Virus record (IMG/VR): IMGVR_UViG_3300029268_002474
Location: 1-22,915 of that record
Source: a virus
Length of the DNA stretch: 22,915 nt
Reading direction: 5' to 3' (one strand)
Below, piece by piece: positions 2,939 to 22,915 of this stretch (the stretch's first letter is position 1; the number at the start of each line of letters is the position of its first letter). The notes beneath the pieces are model-generated. The model saw nothing but the letters and a program-made list of their open reading frames with translations, was not told the origin of the DNA and did not search any database. Both the position numbers and the translations under genes were made by a program.

Positions 2939-3025
2939 CGTTGTTATGCCGGTAAAAAGAACGTCACCCACATTGTCACCCCGAATTCGTATCCGGGGGT
3001 GACGTTGGTGACGTTGGTGACAATG
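2890..3025. repeat. Iteron-like GTCACC/GGTGAC cluster, candidate replication origin
   Basis: Eight exact hexamers fall within 129 bp. GTCACC starts at 2893, 2911, 2963 and 2975; GGTGAC starts at 2934, 2998, 3007 and 3016. A ninth degenerate copy, TTCACC, is at 2902. Most sit in the extended forms AACGTCACC or ATTGTCACC. The left copies are direct and the right ones inverted, and AT-rich DNA begins immediately to the right (from about 3036). The cluster lies directly downstream of a replication ATPase, the usual place for a phage or plasmid origin. Copies at 2960-2982 lie mostly outside coding sequence, which argues that the repeats matter as DNA and not only as protein tails. Confidence 0.6.
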
Positions 3026-3635
3026 TTTCGGTGGGTTTATTAATAGTTTGTTGTCGTCTAGTGGGAACACATAATATATTTATTAAGTCACGCTGTCTAA
3101 GTATCGCGTTTCGCGGGCTTTTCAGTAGCCATTTTATCAAATAAAAATCGGCTGAACAGACTGCTATATGTCCAAAGGTTACTATTCCAATTATTTTTAG
3201 CGCCTGTATATTCGTTATTGTATTAACAATTATCATGTCTTGCCTATACGTTATTATTGCACTTATAATGCATATACCAGTGATACAAATGAAAGGTGCG
3301 ATTGCAGCGCTTATTGCCTGTTGTATTGAGAGTTCGGCCGCATTATCTAAAGCAGAAAACGGGAAAAAACGATGGCACCCCAAATGTGGCCTTTTTCTGC
3401 TATAGATCCATTGAAAAAGGTAGTGGCAAACTTCGTGCGTTGGGAAAATTAAAATCAATGCTAATATTAAAATAATGCACGCATTAAAAATAGGTTGCTC
3501 AATAAGAAAGTAAATCAATAATACGACAAAGAGCAATAAAAAAGGTATGCCATATGGTATGTATTTATCCATAACCGTTTTATCGCGCAGATTTAAAGGG
3601 TCATTAAATATTTGATAACCATCAGGGCATTTCAT
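2976..3635 (-). CDS. DUF3267-like membrane zinc metalloprotease (putative zincin)
   Basis: This 219-aa protein has about four hydrophobic segments (about 27-45, 50-66, 105-128 and 145-170). A zinc-metalloprotease signature, HEVCH (67-71), lies at the end of the second. A conserved-looking acidic residue (D163 in CSADFYL) near the last segment could be the third zinc ligand, as in the DUF3267 'putative zincin' membrane family. That family's substrates are unknown. The ATG at 3633-3635 follows an AAGG ribosome site; a second ATG at codon 22 is possible. The gene is AT-rich and convergent with the replication ATPase. Its last 15 or so residues (TLSPTSPTSPP) are encoded by the iteron-like repeats, so the reading frame runs into the putative origin and its TGA falls inside a GTCACC unit. 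The HExxH motif is clear; the family name is recognised from memory. Confidence 0.7.
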   Translation of the reverse strand: MKCPDGYQIFNDPLNLRDKTVMDKYIPYGIPFLLLFVVLLIYFLIEQPIFNACIILILALILIFPTHEVCHYLFQWIYSRKRPHLGCHRFFPFSALDNAAELSIQQAISAAIAPFICITGICIISAIITYRQDMIIVNTITNIQALKIIGIVTFGHIAVCSADFYLIKWLLKSPRNAILRQRDLINILCVPTRRQQTINKPTETLSPTSPTSPPDTNSG

Positions 3636-3820
3636 TTATACAACCTTTTTACAGTGGATCTCCTGTTTGAATTCTCAGACAATCTTGATTAATTTAAGTA
3701 CAATTATTGCTGTTGCATTGCTTTTGGTATACTCAAATTTATTCATTACGGAAAAGAAGTCGATAGGTGCTACCGGTGGATAGCTATTCATGGTTCATCT
3801 CAACGTATGGCGGGGATTCG

Positions 3821-3991
3821 CTAATTTATAAACTTAACATCCTCGATTTCGAGGTCCAGCCTTTCAATAAATAGCGCTTCTGACCATGTGTCTATTTCAT
3901 CAAGGGCAGCCTCTTCCGCAGTCTCTCTGCTCGGGGCTTCTACACTCATGTCTATCTTCCCTTTGTAAATTACTGTCAAAATGTATTTCAT
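3821..3991 (-). CDS. Small acidic protein, 56 aa, unknown function
   Basis: An ATG at 3989-3991 preceded by GAGGAAAA opens a 56-aa frame ending in TAG at 3821-3823. The protein starts MKYILTVIYKGKIDMSVEAP and continues as an acidic helix (SRETAEEAALDEIDTWSEAL) and a beta-like end (FIERLDLEIEDVKFIN). The good ribosome site, balanced composition and beta-alpha-beta look argue for a real gene. It lies on the same strand as the flanking J-domain and DUF3267 genes, in a stretch otherwise without genes. I do not recognise a family. Size and acidity would fit a small antitoxin-like or DNA-mimic protein, but nothing in the sequence proves this. Confidence 0.65.
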   Translation of the reverse strand: MKYILTVIYKGKIDMSVEAPSRETAEEAALDEIDTWSEALFIERLDLEIEDVKFIN

Positions 3992-4055
3992 TTTTCCTCA
4001 CTTCGGTTCTTTGGAAACAATACAATAACCAAATAATTAAATTAACTGCATTTTT

Positions 4056-4163
4056 TCAAACCAGATTGGCACCTATACCCCTGCACACTTCGCACATTGC
4101 GTCGCAGGCCATAGCGTCTTTATCTGTACCACAGCAACGCCGGCATTTACTATGTCCAACCAT
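4056..4163 (-). CDS. Possible 35-aa cysteine-rich mini-protein
   Basis: The frame runs from ATG (4161-4163) to TGA (4056-4058) and encodes 35 residues with six cysteines: CRRCC at 7-11, C20, C24 and C27. CxxC at 7-10 and CxxC at 24-27 could bind a zinc ion. The ribosome site (AGGA about 11 nt upstream) is weak and an in-frame TGA lies just upstream. It sits between the J-domain gene and the 56-aa gene on the same strand. The cysteine spacing is the only argument for coding, so this is a low-confidence call. Confidence 0.35.
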   Translation of the reverse strand: MVGHSKCRRCCGTDKDAMACDAMCEVCRGIGANLV

Positions 4164-4230
4164 ATTCGATTGCGTCCTGCATCATTTATAATCCCCTGCT
4201 CAATGACACCGTTTGATTAAGCACTGTTTG

Positions 4231-5565
4231 TTAATTACCTCGTTTGGTGATTACCCCGACTTTAGGAAGCATATTAAGTAAACCATTTTTAAATTCTTGA
4301 AAATATGCTGGTGTTATTTCTCTCGATGGTTGGAACAGTACTATAAATAAAATAGTGTGATGTCCCCTTGCAAGATATCTCACTGCCTTGTCTGTAAGCG
4401 TAACAATCTGACTTTTACCTGTGGGACCCTTTATCTCAATTGCAATATGCTCTATGTGGATATCTGGCTGCGATGACCCTTTTCTTTTATTGGACTGGGC
4501 AGGGTGAAATCTGATTTTTAAGTAATTAAAAAGTTCATCATGATACCCGCGTTCTCTTCCATATTGCTTACTTGGTCTGAAATTGAGTATTGCATTCCAG
4601 ACGCTGGCACTTAGGCTGTCAGTCATTTGTCCTGGTGCCCATGTCCATTCGCTAATATTAAGATTGGCAGAATCATGGCTGGATTGCTTAGGTATGTACG
4701 TTGCACTAGTTGGACACCCGTTATATTCTGCGCTGGACTTTTTAGGTATATAACTTGCACTCTTTGATCGTATAGATTGGCTATTGTTAAAGCAATACCG
4801 CCAAAAGCGTCGCGATGTTAATAAAATGCCAATTAATAATAGGGCAATGCCGAATAAGACCATGTCTATCACAGAACCTTTTGCCCATATTTGATATACC
4901 CATGGTATAACGTAGATATAGACTATTAGCGCGATTAATATAACAATCAGAACAAAGACCAGGAAACGGTCGAGGAAATTATTGTTGACAAAATCAGAGG
5001 TTATCCATCTTTGCGTTGACCTAAACCAGGATTTCAATAAGGTAACGAGGACATGGCGAAATTTGTCTGCGAAGATTAGGCTTGCTACTAAGGCACCAAA
5101 TAGCGTGAATAGTACGTACAATATCCAGGTGTTCTGAGTGATGAATAAACCTATAAACGGTGTTAGTACGAATATGGATGCGAGTGCAATATCTGCGACC
5201 AAAAGAATAATTATGGCTATCCGCCGACTGTTCAATCCCCTGCTACTATCTGCTTTATCTTTATATGCGGGGACATATTCAGCTTTATATTTGGGAACAT
5301 CATCGGCCTTGTCTTTTAAACCATATTCGGTCGGATAGAGCTCTCTTTCTAATAGCAAGTCTTGATCATAGCGTTTTCGCCGTGAGGGATCCTTAAGTAC
5401 ATCATAGGCAACCGCTATCTTACTCATGGTCTCTGCGGCAGCGGGCTCATTATTTCTATCTGTAGCGTATTCATCAGCCAGTTTTTTATACGCCGCCTCT
5501 ATGACCTCTGGTTCCGCAGTCGGGCTGACCTGGAGTGTCTCATAATAATCTTCAAAAGTGGTCAT
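4231..5565 (-). CDS. J-like domain, transmembrane region and PD-(D/E)XK nuclease-like domain fusion
   Basis: This 444-aa protein has three parts. Residues 4-69 fold like a J domain (YYETLQVSPTAEPEVIEAAYKKLADEY and AYDVLKDPSRRKRYD are typical), but the HPD loop needed to stimulate Hsp70 reads ATD (34-36). Four hydrophobic helices follow (about 115-140, 146-166, 200-225 and 232-251), with a tandem SA[ST]YIPK[KQ]SS repeat in the linker (269-278 and 287-296). The C-terminal domain has E344, then P367-D368, then E377-I-K379, the spacing of a PD-(D/E)XK nuclease core. A membrane-anchored nuclease tethered to a protein-interaction J module suits a defence effector, but this is inference; a dead J domain may serve only for dimerisation or recruitment. 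It is AT-rich and divergent from the small membrane gene at 5671. Confidence 0.7.
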   Translation of the reverse strand: MTTFEDYYETLQVSPTAEPEVIEAAYKKLADEYATDRNNEPAAAETMSKIAVAYDVLKDPSRRKRYDQDLLLERELYPTEYGLKDKADDVPKYKAEYVPAYKDKADSSRGLNSRRIAIIILLVADIALASIFVLTPFIGLFITQNTWILYVLFTLFGALVASLIFADKFRHVLVTLLKSWFRSTQRWITSDFVNNNFLDRFLVFVLIVILIALIVYIYVIPWVYQIWAKGSVIDMVLFGIALLLIGILLTSRRFWRYCFNNSQSIRSKSASYIPKKSSAEYNGCPTSATYIPKQSSHDSANLNISEWTWAPGQMTDSLSASVWNAILNFRPSKQYGRERGYHDELFNYLKIRFHPAQSNKRKGSSQPDIHIEHIAIEIKGPTGKSQIVTLTDKAVRYLARGHHTILFIVLFQPSREITPAYFQEFKNGLLNMLPKVGVITKRGN

Positions 5566-5603
5566 TGTTTAATTACTCAAATTCCTGAACTGCACCCCAC
5601 CTA

Positions 5604-5629
5604 TTGCCATGACTGGTAGAATTATAGTA
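5604..5629. promoter_or_regulatory. Overlapping divergent promoter candidates
   Basis: The 105-bp gap between the divergent genes at 5565 and 5671 contains ATTATAGTAT (5621-5630). It reads TATAGT on the plus strand and TATAAT on the minus strand, so -10 elements for both directions would overlap. Matching -35 boxes are poor (TTGCCA at 5604-5609 is too close on the plus strand). This is weak but positionally sensible. Confidence 0.3.
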
Positions 5630-5670
5630 TGCCTAAAGCCAATACTCTTGACAAATAGGGTTGAATTATT

Positions 5671-6009
5671 ATGTCGCAACCAACTAACAAATCTATATGG
5701 GAAAGAATCAATAATATCAGCTATAAACTCGGTTTAACTAAATACTGGTGGATACATACTGTTATACTCGTTGTCTTGGCTCTATTAGCAATAGCTTTGT
5801 GTATCTTATTTCCTTGGATTTTACTTTTACCACTCGGATATTTTCTATATACAATCATTAGAGATAAGATAAGAACGAATACGACCCATTATATATATGA
5901 TGATGCCAAAAATACACTTACGCAAGTGAATAAGAATGAATATGAGAATACCATAAAGAAAAGTGGTGCTAATTCGTGGAAAGGGAAAATCACACACAAA
6001 TTGGAATAG
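5671..6009 (+). CDS. Small two-helix membrane protein, 112 aa, unknown function
   Basis: The protein has a soluble N-terminus (1-25), two adjacent hydrophobic helices (about 27-46 and 47-63, forming a hairpin around FPWI) and a basic, hydrophilic C-terminal tail from about 64 with several lysines. The ATG at 5671 has a weak GGG-type site upstream. It is AT-rich like the rest of the cargo block. It is divergent from the J-domain/nuclease fusion and followed 110 bp later by another small membrane gene. I do not recognise a family. The topology fits a small membrane effector or accessory protein, but that rests only on size and neighbourhood. Confidence 0.6.
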   Translation: MSQPTNKSIWERINNISYKLGLTKYWWIHTVILVVLALLAIALCILFPWILLLPLGYFLYTIIRDKIRTNTTHYIYDDAKNTLTQVNKNEYENTIKKSGANSWKGKITHKLE

Positions 6010-6119
6010 ATATATTAAGTGAGTGTATTGGTAAGGTCAAGATAATGAATAAGCTGATTATTATTCTGGTGCGAAAATGGCTGGTCACTTAAAGGATAAT
6101 GGTCATAGTGAGGTGACAA

Positions 6120-6443
6120 ATGTCTGGAATCTATAATTGGTGTAAAGAACATTTGATCTGGACGTACTTCCTTCAGTTGTTTATAGCGTGGGGCATATTG
6201 TTCACGGTAGTATTGCCAACATTTAAGCCACAGGTATTTGAGGCCGGCATGGCAATATATATGATATTTTTTTCGATTACTTTCATTATTGTTAATGCCT
6301 GGATAATATGGCAGAAAGGGCGTAGTTTATGGTGGTTGTTACTAATAGGGTGGTTTTCCCCATTGTGGCTAACAAATAACAACGTTATTAAGCCGAAAAA
6401 GAAAGTGAATAGGCCTTGGTTAGATGACGATGAAAATTTATAG
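6120..6443 (+). CDS. Small three-helix membrane protein, 107 aa, unknown function
   Basis: Three hydrophobic segments are visible (about 13-33, 42-63 and 69-84), then a basic patch (KPKKK, 91-95) and an acidic C-terminus (DDDENL). The ATG at 6120 has a good GAGGTG ribosome site about 5 nt upstream. The gene lies on the same strand as the 112-aa membrane gene and is convergent with the 155-aa gene, with a terminator hairpin between them. No family is recognised. Aromatic residues (W, Y) cluster at the membrane edges, as in genuine small integral membrane proteins, which supports coding. Confidence 0.6.
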   Translation: MSGIYNWCKEHLIWTYFLQLFIAWGILFTVVLPTFKPQVFEAGMAIYMIFFSITFIIVNAWIIWQKGRSLWWLLLIGWFSPLWLTNNNVIKPKKKVNRPWLDDDENL

Positions 6444-6548
6444 TAGGCTGCCAAGCTCTCAATCCAAAGACCACTCGATGGGCCAAAAGACAAGGCAACG
6501 GTCAATTTCAGATTGCAAAAAAAGGATGGTAATCCTTATAAAAACGTA

Positions 6549-6589
6549 CGTAAAGAAAAATAAACAGTAACTTCCCGGTGAGGTTACTG
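6549..6589 (-). terminator. Rho-independent terminator of the Z1 operon
   Basis: On the minus strand CAGTAAC and GTTACTG (arms 6583-6589 and 6565-6571) form a 7-bp stem around an 11-nt loop. A U-rich run follows (complement of 6549-6564). The stem begins 3 nt after the stop of the 155-aa gene. The plus-strand side lacks a U-tract, so termination is mainly for the minus-strand operon. Confidence 0.75.
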
Positions 6590-6591
6590 CT

Positions 6592-7059
6592 TCATATTCT
6601 GGTTGGATCGTTAGACCTTTTAACTTTGGGTTTGGCAAATATTTTTTTCGGATAATCGGTATTGCCGATTTTATAATTCAGTTTACCATCCGTACCTGAC
6701 ACGGAATATTTATGTCCTTCTCGTTTGCTCATGGTGACCCATTTAATTTTATCATCACCGCCAATATGTATTATTGTCGCTAGTTCTTGGTAGCTCAGAC
6801 AACCTATGCCTTTTTCACCGCATATTAGCACGATAAATATATCGGGTATTTTTTTTCGTGTCTCGCTTAATTCTTTGATGTGTTGTGGTGCAAAATTGAA
6901 TCGCCAGGGTGTTCCCACTTTCTCGCTAAATTTCATGTAAACAAATGTCGTATCGTTAATCAGATATCCGTTCTTGCCACTGATTAGTTTTATTGATTCC
7001 AGTCCTCTGTGTATCAGTCGTAACAGTGCTGCCCCATGATACTTTTCATATTTATCCAT
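6592..7059 (-). CDS. 155-aa partner of the Z1 helicase, unknown function
   Basis: The start codon overlaps the end of the Z1 gene by 8 nt (ATGGATAA), so the two are translationally coupled. The protein opens with a helix (YHGAALLRLIHRGLESIKL). Next comes a beta-rich core (GYLINDTTFVYMKFSEK, then PWRFNF, then IFIVLICGEKGIGCLSYQEL). It ends with a segment that looks like a second small module (HKYSVSGTDGKLNYKIG) and a basic tail. N35-D36 with YMK (41-43) and E21 would be compatible with a very small restriction-nuclease fold, but the motif is not strong enough to claim. I recall similar stand-alone proteins of unknown function in diverse bacteria. The operon points to a joint role with the Z1 helicase. 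Confidence 0.75.
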   Translation of the reverse strand: MDKYEKYHGAALLRLIHRGLESIKLISGKNGYLINDTTFVYMKFSEKVGTPWRFNFAPQHIKELSETRKKIPDIFIVLICGEKGIGCLSYQELATIIHIGGDDKIKWVTMSKREGHKYSVSGTDGKLNYKIGNTDYPKKIFAKPKVKRSNDPTRI

Positions 7060-8905
7060 GGTCCTTATTCCTTAAATTTCTATAGAATTTTATATTTGCG
7101 GCATTATGATAATGATATATAATGCGCGCTTGATTCTTGGAGTCCTTTATAACCCTTATATGATGAATTGCGTTGGGATATTGATTCCAATCCGCGCCTC
7201 CAAAAATACCCCGCGGCCTTAAAAGGTCTTCAGTATACGAGTCTGACTCCGCTTGTCGGACTTTTGGGTGGATAGCTATATATCCTTCATATGGTTTACT
7301 TATGGTATTTATGAAGTCGATCAAATATCTCGGCAGGACTTCATCTCCGAATTGTGCGTTAATGGCATCTAATTTTTGTTGATCGGTGACGTTCACATCG
7401 CTGATTATTTTTTCTATTTGATCGGTATACTGGAATAAGCTGAAGTACATCTCGCCTTTATCCATCACGACCGCTTTTTTATCTATGCTGTTATAAGCAA
7501 CCGGGTTAATTCGGGTATCCGCTATCCAAATTGGCGCAACATTTTGGGTTTTAATTGCTGCAAGTGATAAATAATGGTAGACAAAGCACTTATGCCAATC
7601 TTGGTATAATTCGTCGGGTATCCACAATTCAAACAGATTCAAGTATTCCTTTCTGTTTCCGAACATTCTTGCGCGTTGGATGTATGTGTCTTGCTGAAGC
7701 TTCTTTGCTTCTCTTGTAAAAAACATTCCGATCAAGTTGTCGATCGTTAACCCTCTCGAAATAATATTTCCACCGATTATTATAGTGAATAGAAATTTAG
7801 TTTTAGTAGTGTCGAGTCTATCCTTATTCGTGCTGTCTAGCAATTGAATATATTTCTTTCCGTGGTTATCCCTAATAAATACTGCGATTAAATAGGCGTA
7901 GTCTGGTCCATATTTTTCTTCCGCCATTCGGCCAATTTCATCTAAGATCTCTTTGCGTTCCGGATTGTTTTCATCTGCCAAGGTATCGAATATCTTGCTA
8001 ATGATACGTTCATCTTTTTTGTGTTCTTCAGTTGATCCGCTCGTGTGGATCAAGAAAGAACAATGGGCATCTTCGTTGCCCGGCATTTTCATTTTCTCTT
8101 TTAAATCGTTGTTAATGTTTACATATCCAACGTTGACCAGGAAATTTAATAATGCTTCTTTTAGGTATCTTGGTTCATCCCTATTCACATTCTTCTGTTG
8201 GAACTTAGGCGGCGCTGTTGAATCCATAGGAAAAAAATCATCTTTCCCAACGTATAATTCGTGTGGCTCAAAGTAAATCCACTTTCCAGCAATATTATCA
8301 AATGTGCTATTTAAATCTAATCTCGCCGGTGTAGCTGTAACCCCTATATATATTCCGTCCTCGCCCAACAATTTTCCTATCTCATCATTTATCTTGCTTA
8401 TTTTATTTTTATTTATTTTTGTATTTGGCGATGCATAGTCCGCTTCGTCATCTATAATAATCTTATTTTTCTTATTGCCGACACGGTCGTATAGCTTTTC
8501 AAGGTTCCGTGCATTTTTCTTTGATAGTATTATCCAGGTACGATCACCTATAGGTTGTTCAAGGATACGCGTAATTGGTTCCGGAGTGGGATTTATTCCT
8601 GATGATCTGAATCTGTCTAAGTTCTGATCCAATAGTGTTGTACTATCATTTATTAATACAATAATAATCTTATGGCCTTCGTCCAGTAACTTTGCTGCTA
8701 ATGCTATCATCATTGCGGTTTTGCCGCTTTGTGGTTCCCCGTAGATAACAAACCGCTTATTTCCTGATTTTAGGTTACTAATTGCCTCTTGCACAACCTT
8801 CTCAATGTGTTGGGTATTCTTTCCGCTGTTGCGTAAGTAGTCTATTTGCCTCTTATATCTGGTAGATTCGCTTATATAGCTGTCTAATCTATTAACGTCA
8901 AACAA
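7052..8905 (-). CDS. Z1-domain SF2 helicase-like ATPase (short form)
   Basis: This 617-aa protein has a P-loop, GEPQSGKT (56-63), a DEAD-type Walker B (DDEAD, 152-156) and motif III TAT (190-192). It then has the hallmark Z1 region: GGNIISRGLTIDNL (378-391) and a motif-VI-like QRARMFG (410-416) before YLNLFELW. Z1 proteins are known from restriction-like and other defence loci, where they act with nucleases, methylases or GHKL ATPases. Z1 proteins I recall are often larger, and none of those classical partners is here; only the 155-aa gene overlaps it. The start is a TTG (8903-8905) chosen because GGGAGG sits 6 nt upstream (complement of 8912-8917). The gene is AT-rich and clearly foreign in composition to the flanking phage genes. 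Catalytic residues look intact. Confidence 0.9.
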   Translation of the reverse strand: MFDVNRLDSYISESTRYKRQIDYLRNSGKNTQHIEKVVQEAISNLKSGNKRFVIYGEPQSGKTAMMIALAAKLLDEGHKIIIVLINDSTTLLDQNLDRFRSSGINPTPEPITRILEQPIGDRTWIILSKKNARNLEKLYDRVGNKKNKIIIDDEADYASPNTKINKNKISKINDEIGKLLGEDGIYIGVTATPARLDLNSTFDNIAGKWIYFEPHELYVGKDDFFPMDSTAPPKFQQKNVNRDEPRYLKEALLNFLVNVGYVNINNDLKEKMKMPGNEDAHCSFLIHTSGSTEEHKKDERIISKIFDTLADENNPERKEILDEIGRMAEEKYGPDYAYLIAVFIRDNHGKKYIQLLDSTNKDRLDTTKTKFLFTIIIGGNIISRGLTIDNLIGMFFTREAKKLQQDTYIQRARMFGNRKEYLNLFELWIPDELYQDWHKCFVYHYLSLAAIKTQNVAPIWIADTRINPVAYNSIDKKAVVMDKGEMYFSLFQYTDQIEKIISDVNVTDQQKLDAINAQFGDEVLPRYLIDFINTISKPYEGYIAIHPKVRQAESDSYTEDLLRPRGIFGGADWNQYPNAIHHIRVIKDSKNQARIIYHYHNAANIKFYRNLRNKDHG

Positions 8906-9069
8906 TGTTGACCTCCCTGCCTGATCCAGCGCAACAATCGCTCGTCCTCTTCAGCGACCTTTCCACAAGATTCAATTTAGACTATGGATGACCTTACAAT
9001 ACCGCTAATTATCACTAAATACGCATCATAATAGTTCACCATATTAATTTCCGCAACTACCCCCAAGAC

Positions 9070-9113
9070 CCTGACAAAACCCCCTTTTTTAATGTGCACA
9101 AATGTACTATTAT
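9070..9113 (+). promoter_or_regulatory. Late-operon promoter/operator, second copy of 1276-1318 element
   Basis: CCTGACAAAACCCC starts at 9070, and GCACAAATGTACTATTAT (9096-9113) differs from the copy at 1301-1318 at one position. Block spacing is 26 nt here and 25 nt in the other copy. TATTAT at 9108-9113 would place transcription start near 9120, only about 8 nt before the ATG at 9128, so the transcript would be nearly leaderless. The palindrome is less perfect than in the first copy. Confidence 0.6.
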
Positions 9114-9127
9114 GGTAGGCAACGGCT

Positions 9128-22283: not shown

Positions 22284-22478
22284 ATGGTTGAGAATACTGA
22301 TTTAAGTGAGATACTGAAAAACTATCCGGACAAATGGGTAGCCCTCTCTGGCGATAGCAGCAAAGTGGTGGGCGTGGCGGATAAACCAGCAGAGGCCCTA
22401 CAGCAGGCTCACGCTAAAAACGAACCCGACCCCATCCTGACCAGAGTTCCAAAGAACTATGGAACCTATATACTGTGA
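22284..22478 (+). CDS. DUF5678-like small protein, 64 aa
   Basis: The sequence has the pattern I associate with DUF5678: YPDKWVALSGDSSKVVGVAD, then an Ala-rich helix (AEALQQAHAKN), then DPILTRVPKNY. It is a small alpha-beta protein of unknown function. GAGG lies 7 nt before the ATG. Its stop overlaps the GTG start of the protease gene (GTGA), so both are made together. I recall DUF5678 genes often being next to retropepsin-like proteases, which suggests the two form a functional pair, possibly as partner and enzyme. Confidence 0.75.
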   Translation: MVENTDLSEILKNYPDKWVALSGDSSKVVGVADKPAEALQQAHAKNEPDPILTRVPKNYGTYIL

Positions 22479-22915
22479 GCGTCCGTTTTAAACTCGATTA
22501 CAGAAAATTTCCCGCGCAGCCTACCGAGCCATTCCCAAGACGAACCAGCGTATCACGACCGGTAATTCCTGTTGCTTTGATAAAGGGTTCTCAACGTGTC
22601 AGGAATTTGGCCTTGATTGATTCGGGTGCCGATTACTGTATTTTCCATGCCGAAATCGGCCAGCAAATTGGCCTCCAAATAGAATCTGGCAAACGCCTTT
22701 CCTTTTTCGGTTCCAGTGGCCAGGAGCAGTTTGCTTTTTTTCACGAGATTAAGCTTGAAGTTGGCGGGCATGAAATATCTTGTTTTGCAGGCTTCTCACA
22801 AGAGTTACAGAGCCTACCATACGGTATTCTTGGTCAGGTAGGCTTCTTTGATAAGTTCAAAATTACCTTTGATTACGAAAAGGAAAAGATAGAGCTACAG
22901 TCCATTGGCGACTAA
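22475..22915 (+). CDS. Retropepsin-like aspartic protease
   Basis: This 146-aa protein has the catalytic signature LIDSGADYCIF (D49-S-G-A52) of clan AA aspartic proteases. It has the second conserved stretch, YGILGQVGFFDKF (116-128), that packs against the active site, and a final strand, ITFDYEKEKIEL. Bacterial members are single-domain and, like the retroviral protease, work as homodimers. The first 30 residues are proline-rich. The GTG start at 22475 overlaps the DUF5678 stop. Substrates are unknown; the paired small protein or host regulators are possible. It lies at the right side of the element and, being less GC-rich than the late genes, could be separately acquired cargo. The catalytic motif is clear. 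Confidence 0.88.
   Translation: MSVRFKLDYRKFPAQPTEPFPRRTSVSRPVIPVALIKGSQRVRNLALIDSGADYCIFHAEIGQQIGLQIESGKRLSFFGSSGQEQFAFFHEIKLEVGGHEISCFAGFSQELQSLPYGILGQVGFFDKFKITFDYEKEKIELQSIGD

Follow-up and report, generated by a model that had tools for sequence, protein, structure and literature searches.

A recurrent pair of a short Z1 ATPase and a 155-aa protein on a temperate phage, probably a CglI-like but distinct type of restriction-modification module

The Z1 gene pair and its surroundings

The window, by which we mean the whole stretch of DNA analysed, is an IMG/VR virus record of 22,915 bp. It contains an integrase (1-1179), terminase subunits, a portal and a major head protein, and is a temperate phage carrying a Z1 gene and a 155-aa partner gene as cargo. 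This cassette lies in an AT-rich block between integrase and terminase (2976..9120, no strand assigned), which has 38% GC against 58% on either side, hence the block was probably acquired recently.

The first gene of the cassette encodes a Z1-type SF2 helicase/ATPase of 617 aa (7052..8905, minus strand) and the second, on the same strand, the 155-aa partner (6592..7059). The ORF coordinates and the sequence place an 8-nt overlap of Z1 stop and partner start, ATGGATAA, at 7052..7059 (minus strand), which likely couples the translation of the two genes; overlapping Z1-partner junctions were also seen in three homologous loci (L042, L048 and L057). Past the partner stop the operon ends in a hairpin that resembles a terminator and has a U-rich tail (6555..6590, minus strand, -12.3 kcal/mol, z -2.8). 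The original prediction of a two-gene operon with an 8-nt overlap, its own terminator and intact helicase motifs agreed in all these points with what we found.

Z1 ATPases are frequent in defence loci. The Z1 protein of the window consists of a DEAD/ResIII core, a Z1 domain and a C-terminal domain, as judged from Pfam matches to Z1 (2.9e-26, residues 248-440) and ResIII (3.6e-11, residues 35-195), and it also matches the PADLOC model Helicase_II (2.6e-52). Walker A (GEPQSGKT, 56-63), DDEAD (152-156), TATP (190-193), GGNIISRGLT (378-387) and QRARMFG (410-416) are all present, and the key SF2 motif residues are invariant in an alignment of 19 Z1 proteins. The predicted structure is that of an SF2 motor, with the type ISP restriction-modification (R-M) enzyme LlaBIII as the best Foldseek match and PriA and HsdR also listed; no nuclease fold was seen in the C-terminus of this model, the C-terminal part of which is of low confidence. 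The gene starts with TTG at 8905, preceded by a GGGAGGT ribosome-binding site, and its homologue in L042 has ATG at the equivalent position.

Two other genes of the cargo block are of note, both on the minus strand. The first (4231-5565) encodes a 444-aa protein that has a J-domain (PF00226, 2e-15), a number of hydrophobic segments resembling TM helices and, in its C-terminal part, the motif PD...EIK (QPDIHIEHIAIEIKGPTG); from its sequence it is possibly a membrane-bound DnaJ-nuclease fusion and a candidate second defence gene of the block. The other (2976-3635) encodes a 219-aa putative zincin membrane peptidase of the DUF3267 type (5.6e-11). At the end of the record a truncated ORF (22475-22915, plus strand) with a weak match to retropepsin-like aspartyl proteases may stem from host DNA or be a gene at the edge of the phage.

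The partner family and its association with Z1

The 155-aa protein matches the PHROG_28860 profile (7.7e-16) over residues 5-142, nearly its full length, and is thus a member of this family, for which PHROGs assigns no function; the Z1 pairing and the fold are described here. Searches against Pfam, NCBIfam and PADLOC gave no match, and the comparison with the sequences of solved structures gave nothing usable. The AlphaFold model (pLDDT 85.5, pTM 0.81) is suggestive of a degenerate PD-(D/E)XK/Hjc-like fold with an alpha-beta-beta-beta-alpha-beta core: the ten best Foldseek matches in the PDB are Hjc resolvases and PvuII, with a best E of 5e-3 (Hjc, TM about 0.4) and TM of about 0.3-0.5 overall, and among the viral matches are annotated Holliday junction resolvases and, lower in the list, RecU. 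While the predicted fold resembles that of Hjc/PvuII-type nucleases, there is no detectable sequence similarity to them and the acid of the (D/E)xK motif is absent. By alignment, the acid slot at position 41 is hydrophobic or aromatic in 19 of 19 homologues and never acidic. K43, W52, F54 and G122 are invariant (19/19), and position 5 is acidic in 18 of the 19. Canonical metal-dependent cleavage is therefore unsupported, and the protein would be a derivative of the fold that binds DNA, or else use a rearranged site. Three other identities were considered. A B3 DNA-binding fold was dropped as Foldseek returned Hjc and PvuII and no B3 proteins, the modified-base reader YTH gave weak Foldseek matches (TM about 0.26), and the label Helicase-DUF2290 was dropped since the partner has no Pfam match.

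The survey of partner homologues proposed with the original prediction showed that Z1 directly adjoins the partner in 25 of 28 homologous loci outside the window, hence the pairing is far beyond chance. These 25 loci comprise 13 from a scan of a genome collection, nine from sampled genomes, two viral contigs (L048 and L058) and one Nostoc plasmid. In the collection scan, seeded with an alignment of the window partner and three plasmid homologues, Z1 was found immediately downstream of the partner at all 13 loci. An independent HMM search of 296 genomes of the Nitrospirota phylum and 194 cyanobacterial genomes gave 11 positives, two of them already known, and Z1 stood beside the partner in nine of ten loci inspected; a further sample of 147 genomes added one new pair (G521) and a 54-residue partner fragment without Z1 (G519, the same locus as L056). 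This fragment, a Salimicrobium locus (L004) and L038 (the same as G287) are the three loci that have no Z1, so the possibility that homologues occur mostly without it is not borne out. Partner-positive genomes are sporadic (7/296, 4/194 and 7/147 in the three samples), where it should be noted that sampling by genome covered the Cyanobacteria and the Nitrospirota phylum only. Both partner-Z1 and Z1-partner orders were seen along with one divergent pair (L045), and many junctions overlap; adjacency is thus kept and order is not. Scans of viral DNA with the single partner or Z1 sequence gave no matches, nor did alignment A1 on the viral contigs, and the viral pairs were recovered only after the alignments included closer relatives. 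Tblastn with the partner found none among the INPHARED phages.

In a Z1 tree of 42 rows the window protein falls in a clade with L058, L048, L042, L057 and L045 (100/100), and all six members have the partner. Z1 proteins adjoining PLD endonucleases form a separate clade (100/100), in which the PLD labels of the unannotated N. gonorrhoeae plasmid row L007 and of some viral rows were assumed from similar-looking neighbours. Partner-linked Z1 proteins make up three deep groups, and the tree shows no single clade uniting them. The partner tree is weakly resolved, with a window group (77/84) and a cyanobacterial group (96/98), and its groups mostly match those of Z1 with modest support. A profile of the window-clade Z1 run against 396 and 386 genomes had as high scorers G179, G521 and G413, all with the partner, and G031, where the Z1 gene has a frameshift/stop and a methylase of the same family is present without the partner. 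The alternative, in which a Z1 protein of such a size is invariably found with different partners, hence failed, as six of the seven window-clade genes found are paired and the seventh is broken.

Methylases and restriction genes beside the pair

DNA methyltransferases (MTases) are carried by eight pair loci, including three of the closest relatives of the window. Five loci of the Nitrospirota phylum have an m5C MTase and a Vsr gene beside the pair (L044, which equals L011, L043, L041, L040 and L039); those of L043 were identified from the sequence, without a Pfam scan, and in L041 the set consists of MTase, a 285-aa gene and Vsr. Within the window Z1 clade, L042 has an SPPY-type N4/N6 MTase 19 nt upstream of Z1, the phage contig L048 has a Z1-partner-MTase operon with 4-nt overlaps, and L057 has a divergent N6_N4 MTase (5.6e-35) together with BsaWI-like and XRE/HTH genes. 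A single MTase family, with 40-44% identity, includes those of L042, L048 and L142, the last being a broken Z1 locus without the partner. No Vsr gene was seen beside the L042 pair on a contig that ends upstream, and restriction there would need Z1 and partner unless another gene supplies it. This layout is a mild argument for cutting by the partner (or by Z1), although the acid is missing.

Other restriction and defence genes were observed near some of these loci. The BsaWI-like endonuclease match in L057 is weak and is fused to an HTH, next to an XRE controller-like gene (L057:4993-6389), possibly a nested second R-M system. On the Salimicrobium plasmid (L004:2986-5387) the partner homologue without Z1 is preceded by an N-6 DNA methylase that seems to contain a specificity region and is followed by a type I R-M operon, hence members of the family may also act together with R-M systems of other types. 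The viral contig L058 has a DncV-like CD-NTase beside other probable defence genes in a CBASS-like set (L058:2874-6117). In three cyanobacterial loci the bare partner-Z1 pair lies near an hflX-like gene, named by its sequence (L014:12281-13870, L015:11669-13258 and L046:11368-13083), and this neighbourhood is perhaps an integration hotspot.

With Holliday junction resolvases as the closest folds of the partner, the pair could be imagined as a helicase and a junction-binding protein for repair or recombination of phage or host DNA, with no part in defence. We consider this very improbable, since DNA methylases, Vsr and R-M genes are repeatedly linked to the pair, its distribution among the sampled genomes is sporadic, and it is located on plasmids and phages, in the window within DNA of foreign composition.

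Pairs that have no methylase are those of the window, the viral contig L058, L045 and all cyanobacterial loci with adequate flanks. No homologues of the relatives' methylases, of Vsr or of the PLD enzyme were found within the window. The view that the pair is without classical neighbours, and forms a minimal two-gene system, thus describes the window copy, which has no methylase, Vsr or PLD gene, but does not extend to the relatives, and the family as a whole makes more sense as the restriction component of R-M systems. As the window record is likely incomplete, a methylase could lie elsewhere in the phage.

The recurrence of methylase-free pairs with intact ORFs and motifs would also suit a stand-alone antiphage system that senses phage DNA, its modification or a replication intermediate without a methylase mark, the 155-aa protein being the reader and Z1 the motor or effector, and the methylase-linked versions a separate branch that co-opted it. 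The predicted Hjc-like fold would fit recognition of branched DNA, and a CD-NTase gene lies near the L058 pair. However, a DNA MTase stands next to the pair or to Z1 in the window-clade loci L042, L048 and L057 and in the broken L142. Since these relatives all carry one, the methylase link seems to be ancestral or repeatedly useful in the clade, and we regard the stand-alone system as possible but rather unlikely.

It might also be speculated that the phage acquired the restriction genes of an R-M operon, that the methylase was lost and that the pair is now non-functional or unexpressed. The missing methylase, the TTG start and the degraded Z1 locus of the relative L142 are in line with this, but both ORFs are full length with every conserved motif and invariant residue, a good ribosome-binding site, a coupled overlap and a terminator are in place, and the methylase-free layout is preserved in other lineages. 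An inactive remnant therefore appears improbable.

Relation to known systems and possible role

The closest characterised relatives of the window pair are the CglI and NgoAVII R-M systems, made up of an m5C MTase, a PLD-B3 endonuclease (R) and a DEAD-Z1 ATPase (N/H), in which a heterotetramer cleaves unmethylated sites in an ATP-dependent manner. In these systems DNA and the endonuclease subunit stimulate the ATPase activity of the Z1 subunit, and cleavage needs ATP hydrolysis (PMC4267653); for CglI an R2N2 complex is supported and translocation has been proposed (PMC4267653, PMC5737866). This classical set of short Z1, PLD-B3 endonuclease and m5C methylase was missed in the list of Z1 partners given with the original prediction (PMC4267653). 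Like these systems, the pair has a Z1 ATPase of about 615-630 aa next to a DNA-acting partner gene, the DEAD, Z1 and C-terminal layout with intact SF2 motifs, a methylase in related loci, and occurrence on phages and plasmids. Unlike them, it has neither a PLD (RE_NgoFVII) nor a B3 domain, the partner being of another fold and 155 aa; no PLD nuclease was matched among the window genes scanned, and tblastn of the window with the PLD-B3 enzyme gave none. Further, the m5C MTase, present in related pair loci, is absent from the window, whose nearest kin have the N4/N6 type, and the window Z1 and the PLD-associated Z1 proteins occupy different clades (100/100 each).

A second comparison is MZA, composed of a GHKL ATPase, Z1 and a DUF4420 PD-(D/E)XK protein, in which a PD-(D/E)XK-like protein likewise accompanies the Z1 ATPase. 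Its Z1 (MzaC) is however 740-950 aa long and comes with a GHKL (MutL-like) ATPase gene and a DUF4420 protein of about 340 aa; neither of these genes was found among the window genes scanned. The MzaC model scores the window Z1 far under its cut-off (55 vs 1500 bits), and the two fall in separate clades. In the open-licence literature we found no published description of the Z1/155-aa pair, and the biochemistry of Z1 ATPases located there is for the PLD-B3 type (CglI, NgoAVII) only.

As the pair recurs beside DNA methylases, it appears to be the cleaving part of an R-M system of a kind not yet described, used against rival phages. We favour, with some reservation, that it is the restriction half of a CglI-like ATP-dependent R-M system in which the PLD-B3 endonuclease has been replaced by a degenerate PD-(D/E)XK protein of about 150 aa. 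Z1 would be the DNA-dependent ATPase/translocase in the role of the H/N subunit, and the 155-aa protein would sit on it as the DNA-engaging subunit, the foremost candidate to recognise and/or cleave unmodified DNA. By analogy to CglI and NgoAVII, we infer that the two form a complex in which the 155-aa protein, bound to the Z1 ATPase, targets unmodified DNA; the role in defence is likewise putative. In the relatives the DNA methyltransferase of the same operon would mark self, and the phage may carry the module as cargo for superinfection exclusion, with no methylase linked to it; self-protection would then depend on a methylase of the host, on phage sequence beyond the record or on another means of telling self from non-self.

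A more daring variant, which we hold to be doubtful, is a minimal two-protein restriction enzyme of a Z1 translocase and a 150-aa PD-(D/E)XK protein whose active site is rewired. On phages and in cyanobacteria it would need no methylase linked to it, and self would be told by host methylation from unlinked methylases or by DNA structure.

Taken as the restriction half of an R-M system, the module is recurrent and probably a CglI-like but distinct R-M type, not a categorically new one. It would pose the question of how a restriction module is tolerated without its own methylase. If the reading is true, the compact pair found across phages, cyanobacteria and the Nitrospirota phylum, with or without methylases, would represent a further class of ATP-dependent restriction enzyme, and an unannotated phage protein family would gain a testable role.
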